The notes under the pieces are model-generated. The model did no database searches, had not been told where the DNA came from, and was given only the letters and a program-made list of their open reading frames with translations. A program made the position numbers and the translations under genes. A DNA stretch of 64,000 nt, from assembly GCF_000158175.1 (NCBI RefSeq), contig NZ_DS999411.1, positions 2,065,918 to 2,129,917 on the forward strand, given 5' to 3'. Below are positions 2,408-53,493 of the stretch, one piece after another. Each line of letters starts with the position of its first letter. The stretch's first letter is position 1. This DNA comes from Luminiphilus syltensis NOR5-1B. Its GTDB lineage: Bacteria > Pseudomonadota > Gammaproteobacteria > Pseudomonadales > Halieaceae.

Positions 2408-3517
2408 ATGGTACGCAATGTCATTTTGCATATCGGTATGCACAAGACGGGCACGACGTCCCTGCAGAATTCACTGCAGGATTATGACGACGGTGACATC
2501 TTTTACGCGCCACTGGGCGATCCCAATCATTCTGAAGCGCTGTTCACGGCGTTTTCTTCAGACCCATCGGACTACCATATCTGGCGGGACCGGGGTTATT
2601 CGCCCGCCCAGATTGAGGAGCAGCGTACTTTATATCTCTCGAAGCTGAATACGGCATTGCTGCGCGCCAATCGCTCCACCGTCGTATTTTCTGGAGAAGA
2701 CGCCGGCGTCCTGGACGCCGAGGGAAAGAAACAGCTGATCGATTATCTGCAGTCCAATGGCCGTAGTGTTCGGGTGATTTGCTACGTTCGGGATCCGCGA
2801 TCTTTTGCGGCATCGTTTTTCCAGCAGGCGCTGAAGGGCGGCTTGGCTGAAGTTCCCAAAATCAATCCTAATTATCGGCTTCGCCTGGAAACCCTGAAAC
2901 ATCTTTTACCCGAAAGCCAATTGACCGTGAGGAGGTTCGATCGAGAATCGCTAATCGGCGGCAATATCATCTCCGATTTTGCCGCTCTGACGGGTTTGCA
3001 AACCGAGCTTCTGGTCGATTTGAAAGACAATAGCTCGTTGCCCTTTTCTGCGATGAAAATGCTCTTTATTTTTAATCGAGGAGCTATGCTTTCGTCGGGG
3101 GACGACACGCTGTATCGCGCCCGAATTATGTTTATTGGCGCCCTGCGGACGGCCTTTGCCGATCAGAGTGGTCCGCCCCTATCACTATTTGACGACTGTG
3201 CAATTTATGCCGGCTGTGCCTACCTGGCCAAGCATTTTGGCATCGCTTTCGAGGATGAAGCAGCGAGCAGAGGCGAATCGGGCGACGTCGAAAGTGCCGA
3301 GCAGAAACTACTGGATATTGAAGATTGGGAAGTCGAGGTACTAAATCAGGCGCTGGGCGAGCTGGGTTTGACCGGTGATTTTCCGACGGTGGGAGACAAA
3401 CTCAACCGTTTATTTCTGCACTACGTGTATCGATCCCATGAGTCTTTAGCTCCCAGGGAGACCGCAGATACAGGTCTGGATGAAGAGCCAGACACGTCCG
3501 CTTTATCCGGGGAGTAG
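2408..3517 (+). CDS. sulfotransferase-family protein
   Basis: The protein opens with MVRNVILHIGMHKTGTTSLQ, the PAPS-binding P-loop (5'-phosphosulfate loop) of sulfotransferases. About 110 residues later comes ICYVRDPRSFAASFFQQ, matching the 3'-phosphate-binding Arg/Ser segment. The family moves a sulfuryl group from PAPS to a sugar, lipid or protein acceptor; the acceptor here is unknown. I place the start at ATG 2408, directly before the P-loop, because family members usually start there. A GTG at 2189 and an ATG at 2297 would add up to 73 unconserved residues. The last 30 residues are acidic and probably disordered. It is a single gene with no surface-polysaccharide partners in view. Confidence 0.72.
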   Translation: MVRNVILHIGMHKTGTTSLQNSLQDYDDGDIFYAPLGDPNHSEALFTAFSSDPSDYHIWRDRGYSPAQIEEQRTLYLSKLNTALLRANRSTVVFSGEDAGVLDAEGKKQLIDYLQSNGRSVRVICYVRDPRSFAASFFQQALKGGLAEVPKINPNYRLRLETLKHLLPESQLTVRRFDRESLIGGNIISDFAALTGLQTELLVDLKDNSSLPFSAMKMLFIFNRGAMLSSGDDTLYRARIMFIGALRTAFADQSGPPLSLFDDCAIYAGCAYLAKHFGIAFEDEAASRGESGDVESAEQKLLDIEDWEVEVLNQALGELGLTGDFPTVGDKLNRLFLHYVYRSHESLAPRETADTGLDEEPDTSALSGE

Positions 3518-3671
3518 CCAACATCGGCGGGGCAGAGGCATTGCGTCTGCGGTTCCTTCATACACTGGCGGGGGACGCAGCAGGAGCGAGCACCAAGTCA
3601 ACTATTGGGTTGTGGTCGTAACGCCGACACTCGGCCGAGTGGCGCGTGATGGAAGACGCTAGCAACCGAAA

Positions 3672-4235
3672 TTACGCGGCTGTCGCTTCATCCTCAACGA
3701 CGCTTTCGTCCTCAGTTTCAATCGCCGCGAGTTTCGCTTCTGCTGCTTCGAGCTGACGCTTCAGGTCGGCATTCTCACGCTTGCTTTCGTTGAGCGTCTT
3801 TTGCAGGGTATCCGCTGCTTTGGTTTTTTCCGCCAGCTTCTTCTTGCTGGCGTCTAGGTTCTTTTTCATACGCTCGGGGTCGAGGCGGGTGAGGGTCTTG
3901 TTCTCCTCGCGGACCGCGGCCAAATCCTTCTGCAGAGTCTTGACACGCTTTTTTATCTCGGCGATTTCGGTCTGTAGATTCTCAGAGCGGTTATGCAGTT
4001 CGCGGTTCCGCTGCTCGATTTTCTGAGTGCCGGTAGCCTTTTCGGAGAGCTCCGTGATGGTCTCAAGCTGTTTGTTAACAGTGGCCCGGAGCTCGGCCTC
4101 GGTTGACGTCAGCGCCTTGACTTCCGCGTTCCTGGCTTCGATCTCGGCCGTTTTGGCGTCGAGCTGTTCCTGATATTCTGCGCGAAGCTCGGCTTCAAGC
4201 TCCATGATCTTTTCTAGTCGGTTGGCTGTGAGCAT
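3672..4235 (-). CDS. coiled-coil protein, function unknown
   Basis: A 187-residue soluble, highly charged protein. Almost its whole length is heptad-like and rich in Glu, Lys, Leu and Ala, with no signal peptide or membrane segment. The only break is near residues 115-122 (LTRLDPERM). The C-terminus is acidic (ETEDESVVEDEATAA). I do not recognise a named family. It resembles the many small coiled-coil scaffold or granule-associated proteins of bacteria. The flanking genes give no functional hint, and it is transcribed convergently with the sulfotransferase gene. Confidence 0.6.
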   Translation of the reverse strand: MLTANRLEKIMELEAELRAEYQEQLDAKTAEIEARNAEVKALTSTEAELRATVNKQLETITELSEKATGTQKIEQRNRELHNRSENLQTEIAEIKKRVKTLQKDLAAVREENKTLTRLDPERMKKNLDASKKKLAEKTKAADTLQKTLNESKRENADLKRQLEAAEAKLAAIETEDESVVEDEATAA

Positions 4236-4719
4236 AATTTCCTTGGCTGTGTTCCTGTCTGGTGTTCGGGCGAGCGATTGAAACCGACGGCTCCTAAGCG
4301 ATCATCTGCCTGGTTGGCAGTGGGGCGGAACAGTGGTCCATTAAACGGGGTCACAAAGGCCGCCCGTGCTGCAGCGCCTCGGTCCTACTATCATCAATAA
4401 CAAAGTTTCGCCTGCCGGACTCGTGCGTGTAATGGAGCGATTTGCAGGCGGCGGAAGAATGCCCGAACAAGCGCATAATTGCAAGGAATATGCGTCATCC
4501 TCTTGCGGTTGGCCGTTATGTCTGAATGTCGACCCCAAACCAAGCCGATCGGAAGCCAACCTGGGCCCCGGGCCGGTACGTTAAGCGATTAATCCGGGTG
4601 TTTCGAACAAACTGAGGGCCACTACCGACCCTGTTGCTACCAACGGAAATGCGACAAGTACACTGCGCGTGTTCTGGATCGCCCCGCGCGCAACAAAATC
4701 GGGCATCTGGACCTCGTTG
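4236..4719. other. 484-bp intergenic region, nothing recognised
   Basis: It lies between the start of the coiled-coil gene and the end of the ridA-like gene, both on the minus strand. It must hold the promoter of the former. I see no convincing ORF, terminator, repeat or structured RNA. Confidence 0.4.
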
Positions 4720-5223
4720 TCAGATGAATTTGACTTCGGCTTCAATCTCTACCGGAATATCCATGGGGAGTTCTGCCATGCCTACCGCGGAGCGGGAGTG
4801 TTCGCCAATGACGGGGCCAAACAGCTCGATAATCAGTTCACTGAACGCGTTGATCACCTGCGGTTGCTGAGAAAACCCCGGCGCCGAGTTGACCATGCCA
4901 AAAACCCGGGTCCAGGCCGTTATTCGATCGAGTGAACCCAGCGCGTCTTTTAGGCTGCTCAGCATCGATAGGGTGGTCAATTGGCTGGCCTGAATGCCTT
5001 GCTCCAGCGTGAGCACGCTGCCTACTTTGCCCAGGGGTTGAGCGAGGGTGCCATCGGCATTCAAGGGGCCATGACCCGATAAGTAAGCAGTATTGTCAAA
5101 CATACGCACGCTCGGGCATATGAGCTTCACCCCAGGCGGCAATTTCAGTGGGCCGGGAAGCTTCAGATTCATTTCAAGAAGCTTTTCGGCAATCAAATCG
5201 TTCTCTTGGTTTTGATTCGTCAT
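4720..5223 (-). CDS. RidA/YjgF/YER057c/UK114-family protein
   Basis: A 167-residue protein, longer than the usual 130, with RidA-family features: TAYLSGHGPLNADGT, a central GxVGSVLTLEQGIQASQLTTLSMLSSLKDALGSLDRI, and a C-terminal GMAELPMDIPVEIEAEV strand. The Arg normally found at the centre of RidA in CXXXR-type ends is replaced here by the SRSAVGMAELP form, so it belongs to a YjgF-like subfamily rather than canonical RidA. Canonical family members hydrolyse reactive enamine/imine intermediates released by amino-acid oxidases and dehydratases. It is last in a probable minus-strand operon after a DauA-like FAD dehydrogenase and a transporter. That order fits imine clearance, but whether this subfamily has the activity is untested. 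Confidence 0.8.
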   Translation of the reverse strand: MTNQNQENDLIAEKLLEMNLKLPGPLKLPPGVKLICPSVRMFDNTAYLSGHGPLNADGTLAQPLGKVGSVLTLEQGIQASQLTTLSMLSSLKDALGSLDRITAWTRVFGMVNSAPGFSQQPQVINAFSELIIELFGPVIGEHSRSAVGMAELPMDIPVEIEAEVKFI

Positions 5224-48057: not shown

Positions 48058-48468
48058 TCAGGCAAGCTTGAGTAGTTTTGCCAGCCCCATCCCGGCCAGC
48101 ATCGCGGCGATGAAAACCACGGTTGATTCGGTGCCGTAAGCTAGCGCGGCAATCGCAGGTCCGGGGCAGTACCCGACCAGTCCCCACCCGATACCGAAGA
48201 GCACCCCGCCACCGATGAGTCGTCGATCAATGACGGCCGATGCGGGGAGTGAGAAGGCCTCCGCAAAAATGGGCTTGGATCGCTGAAGAATAAACGGGGT
48301 GGCCCCCAGTGATATCAGCAAGGCACCGCCCATGACGAAGGCGAGGTCGGGCTGCCAATCGCCGAATAGGTCAAGAAAGCCCTGTACTTTTGCCGTATTC
48401 GTCATTCCGGAGAGGGCGAGACCGATGCCAAAAAGAATCCCGGATACCAGCGCAGCAAGTTTACTCAC
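48058..48468 (-). CDS. YeeE/YedE-family transporter half (second subunit)
   Basis: A 136-residue membrane protein with four hydrophobic segments. The family motif is GGGVLFGIGWGLVGYCPGPAIAALAYG, where the Cys of GYCPGP is thought to guide thiosulfate-like sulfur species. The start is a GTG at 48468 that overlaps the stop of the first subunit (GTGA), so translation is coupled. The open frame extends further upstream in a register belonging to the neighbouring gene and is not used. With the other half it equals one full YeeE. Confidence 0.85.
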   Translation of the reverse strand: MSKLAALVSGILFGIGLALSGMTNTAKVQGFLDLFGDWQPDLAFVMGGALLISLGATPFILQRSKPIFAEAFSLPASAVIDRRLIGGGVLFGIGWGLVGYCPGPAIAALAYGTESTVVFIAAMLAGMGLAKLLKLA

Positions 48469-48884
48469 AGGCCCAACCCCAGCACGTGACGCAGGATAAA
48501 CACAGTGATGATGCCTGCGCTTATGAACGTGAGGGTAGCGATGAGCGATCGGGCCGAGCGGCGACCTATTCCACAAACACCATGGCCGCTGGTGCAGCCG
48601 CTGCCAATTCGTGTGCCAATCCCCACAAACAGGCCCGCGACGACAATCAACCACAGTGGCGCTTCAGGCGGTGCCGGTATCGCCATTCCTGAAAGCGTGT
48701 GCAACAACCAGGCGCCCACAATCAGACCACCTACAAAATAAACCCGCCACTGACGATCCGGACCCGTTATTGCGCCCCAGACGATCCCGCTGACGCCGGC
48801 GACCCGCCCGAGTGATGCCAGGAGCGACATCGCCGCAAGGCCAATAAACAAGCCACCGATGGTGGGCAAAATATAGGCTGTCAT
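48465..48884 (-). CDS. YeeE/YedE-family transporter half (first subunit)
   Basis: A 139-residue membrane protein with four helices and the motif GIGTRIGSGCTSGHGVCGIGRRSARSL. The GCTSGHG cysteine is the YeeE/PmpA-type sulfur-handling residue. ATG 48884 has a TGGAG site; an upstream TTG is rejected. The two coupled halves (PmpAB-like) probably import a reduced sulfur compound such as thiosulfate. No sulfurtransferase gene is adjacent. Confidence 0.87.
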   Translation of the reverse strand: MTAYILPTIGGLFIGLAAMSLLASLGRVAGVSGIVWGAITGPDRQWRVYFVGGLIVGAWLLHTLSGMAIPAPPEAPLWLIVVAGLFVGIGTRIGSGCTSGHGVCGIGRRSARSLIATLTFISAGIITVFILRHVLGLGL

Positions 48885-49140
48885 TCGAAACTCCACAGCA
48901 ATCGCCGTCAAAAACCGCGTTTAGAAAATAGTCGGGAATAGGGCAGGGCTGCCAGCCGTCAACGTCACATACGCTTCAAGAGCGGAGCCGCTAGCGCCTT
49001 CGTTCTGGCTACCAGGGCCCGTCGTCGACATGGGGCGGCGGGTCCTGCCTTACCTTCTTCTCATTTCACCTACTTACTATCGCAACCGCGACGCATTCTA
49101 GCATTTTGCGTACCGCTGTGGCCCGTATGTTGGCACCCAA

Positions 49141-49197: not shown

Positions 49198-49968
49198 TTA
49201 AGGGGCATCTTCCCATTTTGACTGCAGTAACGCTTCTTCTTCCTGCCACCCCAGCGCAACACCTGCCGCGGTTTCATCGATAAAGCGCGCCACTTGATCA
49301 TCGGTTTGCCCCGAAGCCGGTCGGTAGTAGGTCGATTGCTCGAGAAAGACCTCTCGGCCCATCACCTGGGTAACCCAGCTGCCATCGTGGCGGCAGGCCA
49401 CGCCTCGCCAGTGATTCTCGCTCGATGCGACCATGAATTCACGACACCACTCGCCATCAGCGGCGGGGAACGTCAGCACGGCGCGCATCTGTCGATCGCC
49501 ATCGAGTGCATCCCAGCCCTCTGCTCGTGATGCGTTGCTGTTCAACGCATTGGCGAGCGCACTGTCCATCACCATCGGGTTGTCGATATTCTCCTCCTGC
49601 ACGGCAATAGTGAAGACCATAACAGCGAGAATTGACGCGGCTACCGCCATCGGCTGCGTCGCGCGGCGCCATAGAGGCACGACATTGGACGGTACATCCG
49701 GCAACTCATCATCGGATTGCACCGTTCCAAAGGCCTCCTGAACGTCGGCAGGGACGGCAGCTGAGGCCGTGCTTCGGTAAAAATCGCGTAGCTTTTCGTC
49801 GTTGTCGCGTCGCTCGAAGATCATTTGCTTCAGCGTGCTCGAAGCCGCGATCTCCCGCTCAAACTCGTGACGCTCATCACGTAGCATTTCGCCGTCAATA
49901 TAACGGGAAACACGGATTTCGCGCCGTAAGGCCTCATCTTCGAGGTTGTGAATTTTACCATCGGCCAT
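49198..49968 (-). CDS. probable anti-sigma factor for the adjacent ECF sigma factor
   Basis: A 256-residue protein. The cytoplasmic N-terminal part is acidic-helical (RREIRVSRYIDGEMLRDERHEFEREIAAS), like the start of RseA-type anti-sigma domains. One transmembrane segment (PMAVAASILAVMVFTIAV, about 105-122) follows. The periplasmic domain has two cysteines (WCREFMVAS, GVACRHDGSW). I see no zinc-binding HxxxCxxC motif, so it is not the ZAS type. It is encoded after the sigma gene on the same strand with an 83-base gap. ATG 49968 has an AGGAG site. Periplasmic proteolysis may release sigma; the divergent protease gene is suggestive. Confidence 0.75.
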   Translation of the reverse strand: MADGKIHNLEDEALRREIRVSRYIDGEMLRDERHEFEREIAASSTLKQMIFERRDNDEKLRDFYRSTASAAVPADVQEAFGTVQSDDELPDVPSNVVPLWRRATQPMAVAASILAVMVFTIAVQEENIDNPMVMDSALANALNSNASRAEGWDALDGDRQMRAVLTFPAADGEWCREFMVASSENHWRGVACRHDGSWVTQVMGREVFLEQSTYYRPASGQTDDQVARFIDETAAGVALGWQEEEALLQSKWEDAP

Positions 49969-50051
49969 TGCCGTTACTCCTGCCTGCAAACCAAGGGGAC
50001 ATCCCAAGTACCCCTGTTACGCCCCTGAAGGCGCCTGAAACAGCCCAGACC

Positions 50052-50552
50052 CTAAGAACCTGGACTCCACTCCACTTTCTCTGCAAGGCTCTTTCGGCCT
50101 CGCGCGATCCTACTCATCACTGTTCCGATGGGGATCTCCAATATCTCTGCGACCTCGGCGTATGAATAGCCCTCGACCGCAACAAGCACCAGTGCCGCCC
50201 GCTGGTCTTCGGGTAACGCCGCCATTGCCTGGCTTACCCGATCAAGCTGCAGCGAACCCTCTCCTGTCGCCGCATCCTGTGGTGTGCCGCCGCCGTCCTC
50301 TTCCGCGGCGCTGTGACGCTGTCTTACCTCGCGCCACCGGAGCTCATCTATCCAGAGGTTCTTGCACACCCGGTATGCCCATTTGGCCACGTGGGCATCA
50401 TCGGGCATTCCTCGCTGCAAGAGCCGTTCCACGGTCACCTGCAGCAGGTCGTCTGCGTCCGCTGGCTCAGCGGTAAGCGATAGGCAAAACCGTTTGAGTC
50501 CGGGTAATTCGCCCATCAATAGTTGACGTTGAGCTTTGTCGAGCGCTGCCAT
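50052..50552 (-). CDS. ECF-type RNA polymerase sigma factor
   Basis: A 166-residue sigma factor. Region 2 contains FCLSLTAEPADADDLLQVTVERLLQ and WAYRVCKNLWIDELRWREVRQR, which binds the -10 element. An acidic linker follows, and region 4 reads AMAALPEDQRAALVLVAVEGYSYAEVAEILEIPIGTVMSRIARGRKSLAEKV, which binds the -35. A minus-strand GGAAT-N17-CGTT pattern lies 21-46 bases before its start, and an identical pattern faces the divergent protease gene. It is therefore probably autoregulated and drives the protease. Its signal is unknown. Confidence 0.9.
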   Translation of the reverse strand: MAALDKAQRQLLMGELPGLKRFCLSLTAEPADADDLLQVTVERLLQRGMPDDAHVAKWAYRVCKNLWIDELRWREVRQRHSAAEEDGGGTPQDAATGEGSLQLDRVSQAMAALPEDQRAALVLVAVEGYSYAEVAEILEIPIGTVMSRIARGRKSLAEKVEWSPGS

Positions 50553-50572
50553 TGCCTGCCTGTTAAACTATT

Positions 50573-50598
50573 AACGTCCGGAGTGGTCGAATTATTCC
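50573..50598 (-). promoter_or_regulatory. predicted ECF promoter of the sigma gene (GGAAT-N17-CGTT)
   Basis: On the minus strand GGAAT (50598-50594), exactly 17 bases, then CGTT (50576-50573). This is the general form of ECF promoters (GGAAC-like -35, CGT-like -10). The start site would be near 50566, giving a very short leader. Confidence 0.65.
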
Positions 50599-50606
50599 CA
50601 CGATCT

Positions 50607-50632
50607 GGAATTTTTATGTGTTGCTGAACGTT
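50607..50632 (+). promoter_or_regulatory. predicted ECF promoter of the subtilisin gene (GGAAT-N17-CGTT)
   Basis: GGAAT (50607-50611), 17 bases, CGTT (50629-50632) on the plus strand. Hexamer sequences and spacing are the same as in the divergent pattern. It lies about 42 bases before the chosen start of the protease. Confidence 0.68.
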
Positions 50633-50674
50633 ATCCATTAGATGCAGAGACCCTCTGCAAGGATCAAGGCTCAA

Positions 50675-52567
50675 ATGATGACTTTACCCGTTAACAGTAC
50701 CCCTGCAGCCCCCCGTTGGAAAGTCATTCCCTTGTTCGCCTGCGCGGTGTGGCTTTTCAGCCAGGCCAGCTATTCGCAGGAGCTCACCGTGGGTGGCTAT
50801 GCTGATTTCGGCGATGACGTAGACGAACAGGTCGAGGAGCAGGTCGCTGATCAGCTCGAAGAGCAGACCGAGCAAGGGGTTGCTGACGCCACCGAAGACG
50901 AAGTGAGCGATGGGGTGGTGGATAGTGTGGAAGACCGGGTCGAAGACCAGCTCACCGTCGGCGGTTACGTCGACTTCGATGAGCAAGTCGAAGAGCAGGT
51001 CGAGGATCAAGTAGAGGATTCGGTCTCAGATGAAGTCGTCGACGGTGTGGTGGACCAGGCCGAAGATGCCGTGCTGGATGATATTACCGAGGGCGCCGAG
51101 GAGGAGATTGTTGTCACCACCGAGGAGGTAATTGCCGAGGAAGTGGAAGACTCGCTGGAGACTTCGGTAGAGCAGTCGGTTGAGGAGGACACCGAAGAGG
51201 AAGTGGTGGCGACCGTCGAGGAGCAGGCCGCCGAGTCGGCGGAGCAACAAATTGAAGAGCAGGTCGCCGATGCCGCTGAAGATGCGGTAGCCGGTGACGT
51301 GACTGCTGCGACCGAGGTGGCTGTCGAGGAATCCGCCGGCGATGCGGCGGAGGCGTCACTGGAGGAGCAGGTCGCTGAGTCCATCAGCGCCGACGCGGAA
51401 GAAGAAGTGATCGACGACGTTTATGACACCGCTGAGCGGGTTGCCCTGGTTTCAACAGAGGATCTTCTGGCCTCCGAAGTCGAGGAATTGATTGACGATA
51501 TCGAGACGGGAATTGGGATCGATAAGCATCGGATCCACAGCGATCAGTGGCTGGTGATGGCTGAACCTGAAGTCTTCGATGAACTGGCCGATGAGGGCTA
51601 TCTGTTTGATACCTTCACGGAACTGCCGGGGCTGGGACTGCGGCTCGCGGAGGTTGCTGCGCCTGCGAGTTTCGATATTTCGGTTGCTCGTGACGGTATT
51701 CTTGATGTGGTCGGTGATCGCGCTGAAGTGGATCTGAATCACATTTATACCGCTGGCGTTCCCGATGCCGGCGACGCCGCATCGGGGGTTTTGCCGCGAG
51801 ATGCGATGACCTTCCCCGACGATATTGGATCACTGAATCTGCGTATTGGTGTGGTGGACAGTGCGGTTGATATGACACACCCCGCGCTCGCCAAGGCATC
51901 TATTACCGCTCGCGCCTTCGTGGGTAATGACACCGATATGCCCGCTTTTCACGGCACCGCCATAGCGTCTATTTTCTCGGCAGATTTCGAGGATTTTCAG
52001 GGCATCGCCCCGGGAGCAACACTGTATTCCGCGGCAGTATTCGAATCGTCCGAGAACGACGGGGAAATAGCCAGTACTGTGAGCCTTGTCAGGGCAATCG
52101 ATTGGTTGTTGGCCACGGGCGTAGACGTTGTGAATCTGAGCCTGGCCGGGCCCGCCAACCGTTTGCTTGAGGTCGCATTGAAGCGGGTAGCCGAACGGGA
52201 TGTCATTGTTCTGGCCGCTGCCGGTAATGGTGGGCCTATGTCTCGCCCGCTATACCCCGCGGCCTACGATAGCGTTGTGGCAGTGACGGCCGTTGACCGG
52301 GAAGGGCGGGTATTTCGATTGGCCAACCGAGGCGATTACCTCGATTTGGCTGCACCTGGTGTGAATCTTCGTCATGCCCTTGCCGGTGGTGGTTATGCGA
52401 CGTCATCCGGGACCTCTTTCGCCGTCCCCTTCGCCGCAACCGCAGCGGCGGCTATTAAGCATCGCGAACCGGAAACCGACGTGCTCGACCGTCTCTACGC
52501 GTCGGTAACCGATCTGGGCCCACCCGGGCGAGATACTATTTACGGTTATGGCTTGCTGCGCCCCTGA
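50675..52567 (+). CDS. subtilisin-family (S8) serine protease with long acidic repeat region
   Basis: A 630-residue exported protein. The signal peptide includes VIPLFACAVWLFSQASYS. An acidic, low-complexity region of about 240 residues follows, rich in Glu, Val, Asp and Ala with EEQVE/EDQVE/VEDS periodicity. It contains two copies of a LTVGGYxDF motif. A linker and the S8 catalytic domain come next, with Asp in GVVDSAVDMTHP, His in AFHGTAIASIF, Asn in AAAGNGG and Ser in SSGTSFAVPFAAT. The acidic part could bind calcium, act as a pro-region or hold a partner. I use ATG 50675 (AAGG upstream) rather than 50642. The gene faces the sigma operon. Confidence 0.88.
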   Translation: MMTLPVNSTPAAPRWKVIPLFACAVWLFSQASYSQELTVGGYADFGDDVDEQVEEQVADQLEEQTEQGVADATEDEVSDGVVDSVEDRVEDQLTVGGYVDFDEQVEEQVEDQVEDSVSDEVVDGVVDQAEDAVLDDITEGAEEEIVVTTEEVIAEEVEDSLETSVEQSVEEDTEEEVVATVEEQAAESAEQQIEEQVADAAEDAVAGDVTAATEVAVEESAGDAAEASLEEQVAESISADAEEEVIDDVYDTAERVALVSTEDLLASEVEELIDDIETGIGIDKHRIHSDQWLVMAEPEVFDELADEGYLFDTFTELPGLGLRLAEVAAPASFDISVARDGILDVVGDRAEVDLNHIYTAGVPDAGDAASGVLPRDAMTFPDDIGSLNLRIGVVDSAVDMTHPALAKASITARAFVGNDTDMPAFHGTAIASIFSADFEDFQGIAPGATLYSAAVFESSENDGEIASTVSLVRAIDWLLATGVDVVNLSLAGPANRLLEVALKRVAERDVIVLAAAGNGGPMSRPLYPAAYDSVVAVTAVDREGRVFRLANRGDYLDLAAPGVNLRHALAGGGYATSSGTSFAVPFAATAAAAIKHREPETDVLDRLYASVTDLGPPGRDTIYGYGLLRP

Positions 52568-52572
52568 ATCTT

Positions 52573-53493
52573 TTAGAAGCGGATTTCCACACGCGTTCCA
52601 ACCACGGTTTGGTCGTAATCTGCAGCGGGTAAATTAGAGCTGTAGTCTCCGTAGGCTCCGTAGACCTGCCAATTGAGATAAGAGGTAACGGGGATCTCTA
52701 GTTCAGCTTTCAGCCGCAGGCGATCATCGTCTCTCTCCTCACCAATGCTGGGCGTGTCGGCACTGTAATCGCGCTGCTCAAAGCGTGCCGAGAGCTCCAC
52801 GGTTGAAAGACGCTCAAATGCTGTGAATCGCTGCACGAACCTGAGTTTCAAACCATGGCTTCGATAATCAAAGCGGTCGGCCTGGCTGTTCTCCGATTTG
52901 TAGTTGTAGCCCGCATTGATGTAGCGCCGTAAGCCTTTCCAAAAAAAGTAGGCATCCAGCTCGGCACCGTCGGTGATAGCGTCACGACCGGATCGCGTTT
53001 CGATCGATTTTTCGCTGCGCACGTAAGCGCCACGAAAGAACCAGCGCTTGCTGGCAAACCCTGATATCGAGGGGGAGAGGCGCTTGTAGGTGAGAAAGTC
53101 ATTGCCGTCGAGTAGGGCGTTGATATAAAAGTAGTTAAGCCCCGTTGATATCGCACCAATATTGGCGCTTAGGTTGGCACCTAAAATATGGGTTTGTCGG
53201 CTGAGTCTGCTGTAGGTGTCATAGGCAGTCTGGCCAAAGCTGTAGGACAGGGAGGCTTTGGCGTTGTCCCCCAGTGTTTGGTCGACACCGATGTCGGCAC
53301 CGTAAACCAGCGCATGGTCACTGCGCCCACTCGAGGCCTCCACCTCGTCTATAGAGACGTTGCTATCGTATTCCCGGCCTACGTTAACGCCGCCGGACAG
53401 CGTTGTTTCGGCATGCACCTCACCAAAAGAAAGCGCGCAGCAGACGCTGATGCCAAGCAATCGCTGAAAGTAAGGGGCGGGGCACTGATTCAT
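52573..53493 (-). CDS. outer-membrane beta-barrel protein
   Basis: A 306-residue protein. The signal peptide ends SFGEVHA. The rest is alternating amphipathic strands: GVNVGREYDSNVS, AKASLSYSFGQTAYD, GLNYFYINAL, RYINAGYNYKSENS, STVELSARFEQRDYS. It ends in VGTRVEIRF, a C-terminal Phe typical of BAM substrates. Its length would allow a barrel of about 14 strands. It resembles DUF560/surface-assembly-modifier-like barrels but has no TPR part. It converges with the protease gene with five bases between stops, so a functional link is possible. I do not know the substrate. Confidence 0.75.
   Translation of the reverse strand: MNQCPAPYFQRLLGISVCCALSFGEVHAETTLSGGVNVGREYDSNVSIDEVEASSGRSDHALVYGADIGVDQTLGDNAKASLSYSFGQTAYDTYSRLSRQTHILGANLSANIGAISTGLNYFYINALLDGNDFLTYKRLSPSISGFASKRWFFRGAYVRSEKSIETRSGRDAITDGAELDAYFFWKGLRRYINAGYNYKSENSQADRFDYRSHGLKLRFVQRFTAFERLSTVELSARFEQRDYSADTPSIGEERDDDRLRLKAELEIPVTSYLNWQVYGAYGDYSSNLPAADYDQTVVGTRVEIRF

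Follow-up and report, generated by a model that had tools for sequence, protein, structure and literature searches.

The window analyzed here, a stretch of 64,000 nucleotides from Luminiphilus syltensis NOR5-1B, carries two genes that point away from each other across a region of 122 bp, counted, as in the initial annotation, from the ATG of a sigma factor gene (50552) to the probable ATG of a protease gene (50675). The minus strand encodes an ECF sigma factor, followed by a putative anti-sigma factor, and the plus strand encodes an exported protease of the S8 (subtilase) family, whose gene converges with that of an outer-membrane beta-barrel-like protein (Table 1). The protease displays an N terminus that resembles, by eye, a signal peptide, a long acidic repeat region, and a C-terminal catalytic domain in which Asp395, His426, and Ser581 are invariant among the 14-15 aligned proteases. 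Translation of the protease probably starts at 50675, since this ATG is preceded by the sequence AAGGATCAAGG, while the alternative ATG at 50642 lies 9 nt after a candidate -10 box, and no ribosome-binding site was found before it. The region that precedes the catalytic domain (50765-51790, plus strand) is highly variable in length, the whole protein measuring 424 aa in one related locus (L061) and 1063 aa in another (L073), where Asp and Glu make up 62% of this region.

Table 1. Features of the divergent sigma factor and protease genes, with positions in the window.
Feature	Position	Strand	Remarks
Putative anti-sigma factor	49198..50007	minus	probable start ATG 49968
ECF sigma factor, 166 aa, probably ECF26 (RpoE6-like)	50052..50552	minus	Pfam Sigma70_r2 and r4_2; NCBIfam sigma70-ECF
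Predicted sigma-side (autoregulatory) promoter, ECF26-type	50573..50598	minus	-35 GGAATAA from 50598; -10 CGTT 50576-50573; N17 spacer
Gap between the two -35 boxes	50599..50606		8 bp
Predicted protease-side promoter, ECF26-type	50607..50632	plus	-35 GGAAT 50607-50611; -10 CGTT 50629-50632; N17 spacer
Probable ribosome-binding site of the protease gene	50659..50669	plus	L042-L046 likewise have AAGGA ahead of the ATG
Exported S8 (subtilase) protease	50675..52567	plus	Pfam Peptidase_S8, E 2e-30; longest frame from 50642
Outer-membrane beta-barrel-like protein, convergent with the protease	52573..53493	minus	weak Pfam SlipAM and BBP2_2 matches

The protein encoded downstream of the sigma factor is regarded as a putative anti-sigma factor on the basis of its position, a weak profile match, and a partial model. 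Its gene follows the sigma gene in every close locus whose contig extends that far, and relatives are found in 18 genomes, including G022, where the gene lies at the start of a contig, and G015, which has a fragment; neither of these two has a close sigma match. It matches an NCBIfam anti-sigma profile weakly (24 bits where the cut-off is 100, E 3.2e-05) and no Pfam family, and a search of its profile against solved structures returned nothing useful. The AlphaFold2 model (mean pLDDT 73.8, pTM 0.46) comprises N-terminal helices and a C-terminal beta domain, both predicted with confidence, and a helix at residues 120-140 within a stretch with pLDDT below 50. This predicted layout would agree with that of ECF26-type anti-sigma factors, which involve an N-terminal anti-sigma domain, one transmembrane segment, and a periplasmic C-terminal domain, but the low pLDDT of the helix and the weak profile match make the agreement tentative; helix 120-140 is a possible membrane segment. 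Cys188 and Cys205, invariant in an alignment of 10 relatives, lie on neighboring strands of the predicted beta domain and could form a disulfide.

The beta-barrel-like protein, which might export or anchor the protease, has a relative in 15 of the 80 genome-contig loci recovered by the search described below. Control of its gene by the promoter motif of the divergent region was considered and rejected, since no site lies between 250 bp upstream and 30 bp inside the estimated start in the window and in 14 of the 15 relatives (the start in L075 being unusable). Beyond the anti-sigma gene, the minus strand carries a Sulf_transp (YeeE/YedE-like) gene (48058-48911), with an overlapping ORF in another frame, and a relative of this gene also adjoins the module in most of the close loci examined for it (11 of 15). 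By analogy, a link of the module to sulfur is tempting, because other ECF26 sigma factors respond to sulfite; RpoE1 and RpoE4 are known to be controlled in this way, and preliminary data on RpoE6 speak against it, according to the text available of PMC3511301.

Within the 122-bp region, the pattern GGAAT-N17-CGTT occurs once on each strand, with boxes, coordinates, and spacers exactly as the initial annotation had described them, and the two -35 boxes are indeed 8 bases apart. The sigma-side site lies 20 nt 5' of the sigma ATG. The identity of the two N17 spacers had been taken as a telling sign; it is incidental, spacers across relatives being either N16 or N17. Occurrence of the motif by itself says little. 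In the window, GGAAT-N15..18-CGTT is found three times against 2.78 expected, without enrichment, and the genome scan that had been suggested as a check (GGAAT-N16..18-CGTT) returns 61 matches against 37 with the pattern reversed, with GGAAT-N16/17-CGTC giving 52 against 25, an excess that is uninterpretable because the reversed control does not preserve dinucleotides; the motif alone is weak evidence. When the 122-bp region was shuffled 20,000 times with its dinucleotides preserved, for a motif that had been chosen after looking at that region, a sigma-side site arose 9 times, a protease-side site 5 times, and both together 0 times. Conservation in relatives is a stronger test of the pair than these shuffles.

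A search of 58 related genomes, that of the window included, identified close orthologs of the sigma factor (60-67% identity) in 15 further genomes from the genus of the window, as well as a truncated copy (L048); the loci that carry names point to Luminiphilus and other Halieaceae. Start codons in relatives were chosen by script, and one locus whose contig ends at the sigma gene (L039) and the duplicates L061-L064, L067, and L068 were dropped. A sigma-side GGAAT-N16/17-CGTY site is present in all 20 distinct close loci, where approximately 0.03 would be expected, at 20-22 nt from the sigma start codon in 19 of them and at 27 nt in the truncated copy. The alignment of relatives proposed at the outset bears out the sigma-side box in full and the protease-side box in part: the latter occurs in 9 of the 20 loci (the window, L038, L041-L046, and L069; again approximately 0.03 expected), with a GGAAC variant at the same position in L066. 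Wherever contigs extend far enough, the close loci retain the order of sigma factor, anti-sigma factor, and divergent S8 protease, with the exception of L070, in which no S8 match was found and where the sigma-side site is present and the protease-side site absent. The possibility that both sites match a loose pattern of nine bases by chance could draw on the absence of enrichment in the window and on the 94 GGAAT-N16/17-CGTY sites of the genome; it is refuted by the shuffles and by the recurrence of the sites at matching positions, 20/20 on the sigma side and 9/20 on the protease side, and retains a negligible probability.

The same arrangement extends further afield. Among 28 more distant loci that were chosen for comparison, 17 have a site on the sigma side, 13 on the protease side, and five on both (within 200 bp), against 0.09 and 0.08 expected by chance on the two sides, respectively. 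Taken together, a divergent S8 gene is present in 40 distinct loci, among which are 30 with a sigma-side site, 21 with a protease-side site, 13 with both, and 38 with at least one (200 bp), L088 and L143 being the sole two with neither. L143 comes from a plasmid of Neorhizobium galegae; the annotation of its divergent gene (3445-4847, minus strand) is in two pieces, a hypothetical protein and an S8 peptidase, and no motif was found; this protease is perhaps frameshifted or split. Of the eight other tallied loci, L077 alone carries a site that points away from the sigma gene, on a contig that stops 625 bp upstream of the match. Sites facing away from the sigma gene also occur in L132 and L134, both outside the tally, where no S8 match was found. 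The comparison covered 80 genome-contig loci, 33 of which have an S8 match (27 of them divergent), and 3 plasmid loci taken from 890 matching records; the tally left out L087 and L105, where the S8 gene is not divergent, and all but L070, L077, and L078 of the 47 loci without an S8 match. Eight alphaproteobacterial loci have the protease-side site only. Ten two-sided loci, all gammaproteobacterial, keep their -35 boxes 7-12 bp apart: the window and seven further loci of the genus, L069, and L072 from Aliidiomarina. In five alphaproteobacterial loci, the distance is 48-152 bp.

The initial annotation had named, as evidence against a shared sigma factor, boxes that are not kept in relatives with the same gene order, and this is found for one half of the pair: eight loci (L032-L037, L040, and L065), which form a single clade with L039 (support 100/99), retain both genes and have no plus-strand site. 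Seven of the eight have TAGACT exactly 6 nt ahead of the protease start codon, in the form TAGACT-N2-CATC-ATG, and in L037, TAAGCT is found 3 or 6 nt before the ATGATG of the protease; the pattern is absent from the remaining 12 close loci. This box is read as the probable -10 element of a leaderless transcript, and no good -35 was found for it. Loss of the protease-side site on the branch leading to this clade is the simpler reading of the tree, since L066 (as a variant), L069, and L072, which lie outside the genus, have the site; L048, L070, L071, and L076 also do without it, and the deep branches of the tree are weak. A second upstream candidate seen in L032, L033, and L035 was rejected, as it lies inside the protease coding region and is missing from L034 and L036. 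A tie between protease length and the protease-side site was likewise discarded: proteases of the clade measure 422-426 aa and those of L066-L069 641-823 aa, and the two-sided locus L038 (G002), with a frame of only 445 aa, breaks the rule.

This clade lends some substance to a rival explanation, in which the sigma-side site is real and the protease of L. syltensis is expressed mainly from another promoter, the plus-strand site being a relic or of minor importance. In its favor, this sister clade lacks the site and has a -10-like box before the protease ATG. In the window itself, however, no sigma-70-like promoter is present in 50400-50800, no TAGACT-like box precedes the protease start, and L069 and seven further loci of the genus retain the plus-strand site, all of which makes this explanation improbable. 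Control of the protease by its own plus-strand site remains the preferred reading for the window.

The reach of the motif in the genome of L. syltensis may be small. A strict scan yielded 42 CGTT and 52 CGTC sites with N16/17 spacers, a total of 94 distinct sites that were viewed with their flanks; 95 were scored, one of the 19 N18 CGTT sites being included. The score ranks the window pair 5th and 8th of 95 and does not single it out. Eighteen of the 94 sites fall outside ORFs of at least 100 aa, and two of these are the window pair; at seven of the other 16, an ORF of at least 80 aa begins 5-200 nt downstream, with products that, by eye, include leuC-like, ABC permease-like, and sigma-54-activator-like ones. 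The GGAATAA form is found at none of these seven sites, and is also absent from the protease-side site of the window. The top-scoring site, in L165 (1979200-1981600 of the genome), reads GGAATAAA...CGTC and contains within its spacer, by eye, the start codon of a lipoprotein-like ORF, whose probable ribosome-binding site the match also overlaps; as this case shows, GGAATAAAATG mimics a -35 box. No further convincing target was found among the 94 GGAAT-N16/17-CGTY sites, and the simplest interpretation would be a small regulon confined to this locus.

Sigma factor and protease also co-occur across genomes. Among the 58 genomes, 16 have both, one has the sigma factor only, one has the protease only, and 40 have neither, so that each is found in 17 genomes (with the truncated copy in G003 counted for the sigma factor, and the catalytic domain for the protease). 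The genome with only the sigma factor is G029, where the contig ends at that point, and the one with only the protease is G004. Fisher's test, which ignores kinship, gives p of approximately 4e-12 overall and 2e-8 within the genus. Two single-contig genomes of the genus (G006 and G031) have neither gene, which suggests that the module is accessory.

The identity of the sigma factor is likely, by sequence, to be that of an ECF26 member. It shares 41% identity with RpoE6 of Sinorhizobium meliloti, and in a 59-row tree rooted at its midpoint, both fall within a clade of 44 rows (support 85/85), while RpoE5, of group ECF15, is placed in a separate clade of five rows (support 98/97). The region-4 helix is identical to that of RpoE6 at 15 of 26 positions, and likewise at 15 of 26 to that of another ECF factor of the same genome; the core IPIGTVMSR, common to the window sigma and RpoE6, is the one part of it that favors RpoE6, and is also present in the Sinorhizobium paralog L149. 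This paralog and L150, which has an rpoE1-like promoter with five mismatches, may themselves be ECF26, and because both fall outside the 44-row clade, membership is likely rather than settled. The promoters of the window fit the targets of the group (-35 GGAAT(A), -10 CGT(C/T), from the consensus in the text available of PMC6180224 and PMC6527743), and divergence of the sigma gene from a serine protease gene, a trait of ECF26, is present. It is this combination of promoter code and gene context that makes ECF26 the best name. The initial annotation had proposed that the sigma factor defines its own motif; the pair does recur with the sigma gene, and the motif was already known as the ECF26 consensus.

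EcfG-type factors (ECF15) recognize GGAAC-N16/17-CGTT. A different sigma factor could drive the pair, either of the EcfG/ECF15 type involved in the general stress response or another ECF factor of the genome: the targets of RpoE6 and RpoE2 overlap and their motifs are similar, as are the promoter forms of the two groups, as far as the text of PMC6180224 goes; the window sigma gives a weak Pfam match to the PhyR sigma-like family; and eight places in the genome pass the cut-off for the region-4 family, the window sigma among them (three others were compared). Against this, the -35 box is GGAAT, often within GGAATAAA, and differs from the EcfG box in its fifth base, and RpoE5 falls in a different clade from the window sigma, both of which speak against EcfG/ECF15 membership. 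In Alphaproteobacteria and Gammaproteobacteria alike, moreover, the sites accompany this sigma gene. Such a substitute is decidedly improbable, more so than a relic site, and the ECF26 factor encoded next to the pair remains the favored candidate.

The closest known system is that of RpoE6, EcfR6, and SMa0142 in S. meliloti, which comprises an ECF26 sigma factor, a downstream anti-sigma factor, and a divergent S8 protease with a GGAATA-N-CGTT promoter that responds to the sigma factor; the window has the same layout, with a probable ECF26 sigma factor, a putative anti-sigma factor, and a predicted protease promoter. The text available of PMC6180224 describes the divergence of rpoE6 from a serine protease gene as widely conserved in ECF26, lists the SMa0142 promoter as GGAATA...CGTT, gives a cross-species consensus of -35 GGAATA and -10 GT, and reports an increase in SMa0142 upon RpoE6 overexpression (table value 4.7, log fold change). 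On pSymA (L141), the published SMa0142 promoter was found between rpoE6 and the S8 gene, directed towards the protease. The two loci differ in that S. meliloti has only the protease-side site, no GGAAT...CGTY being present in the 300 bp upstream of rpoE6, whereas the window has both sites back to back; the S8 catalytic domains share 39% identity, and the protease frame is longer in the window (641 aa, against 466 aa in S. meliloti). Other members of the same group, associated with the sulfite response, are the S. meliloti factors RpoE1 and RpoE4 and the Starkeya novella factor SigE; they share the consensus of -35 GGAAT and -10 CGTC (PMC6527743, where spacing varies by 1 bp, and PMC3511301) and control sulfite oxidation genes; RpoE1, RpoE4, and RpoE6 all activate a heterologous ECF26 promoter (PMC10880074). 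In the portions available, PMC8175422 mentions SMa0142 as a table entry only, and PMC8103513 and PMC8999054 hold nothing on a link between sigma factor and protease. Literature searches on a Luminiphilus sigma factor and serine protease, and on RpoE6 and SMa0142, gave no account of the pair in Halieaceae among the matches listed, which is a weak negative.

These observations make it very probable, at the level of sequence, that the locus is an ECF26 module of RpoE6 type, in which one sigma factor drives, through back-to-back promoters, the operon that encodes it as well as the gene of an exported S8 protease. The initial proposal that a single sigma factor stands behind both divergent genes is supported by the recurrence of the boxes with the gene order, by the kinship with RpoE6, and by the published response of SMa0142 to RpoE6. 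In such a module, the anti-sigma factor, probably membrane-anchored, would keep the sigma factor bound until an envelope signal is received; the released sigma factor would then bring RNA polymerase to GGAAT-N16/17-CGTY promoters, the sigma-side promoter providing feedback on the sigma/anti-sigma operon and the protease-side promoter leading to expression of the acidic subtilase, which would act in the envelope or outside the cell. With just 8 bp between the -35 boxes, full binding of two holoenzymes at once is probably impossible, and the two outputs may compete. A bolder and rather doubtful extension would see the 7-12 bp gap of Halieaceae-type loci and Aliidiomarina as a mutually exclusive switch, in which feedback and protease expression share the holoenzyme, from which one Luminiphilus clade has freed its protease by means of a leaderless promoter, and in which the protease may cut the anti-sigma factor, closing the loop.

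Both the promoter code and the arrangement are already known for ECF26; the fresher points are the tight spacing of the paired promoters and the clade that has no protease-side site, which offers a natural experiment on the purpose of sigma control over the protease. The locus provides a clean and testable pairing of a sigma factor with its promoters in a marine group, and it indicates that the link between ECF26 sigma factors and S8 proteases, for which the literature consulted gives experiments in S. meliloti, extends across Alphaproteobacteria and Gammaproteobacteria under a common promoter code.
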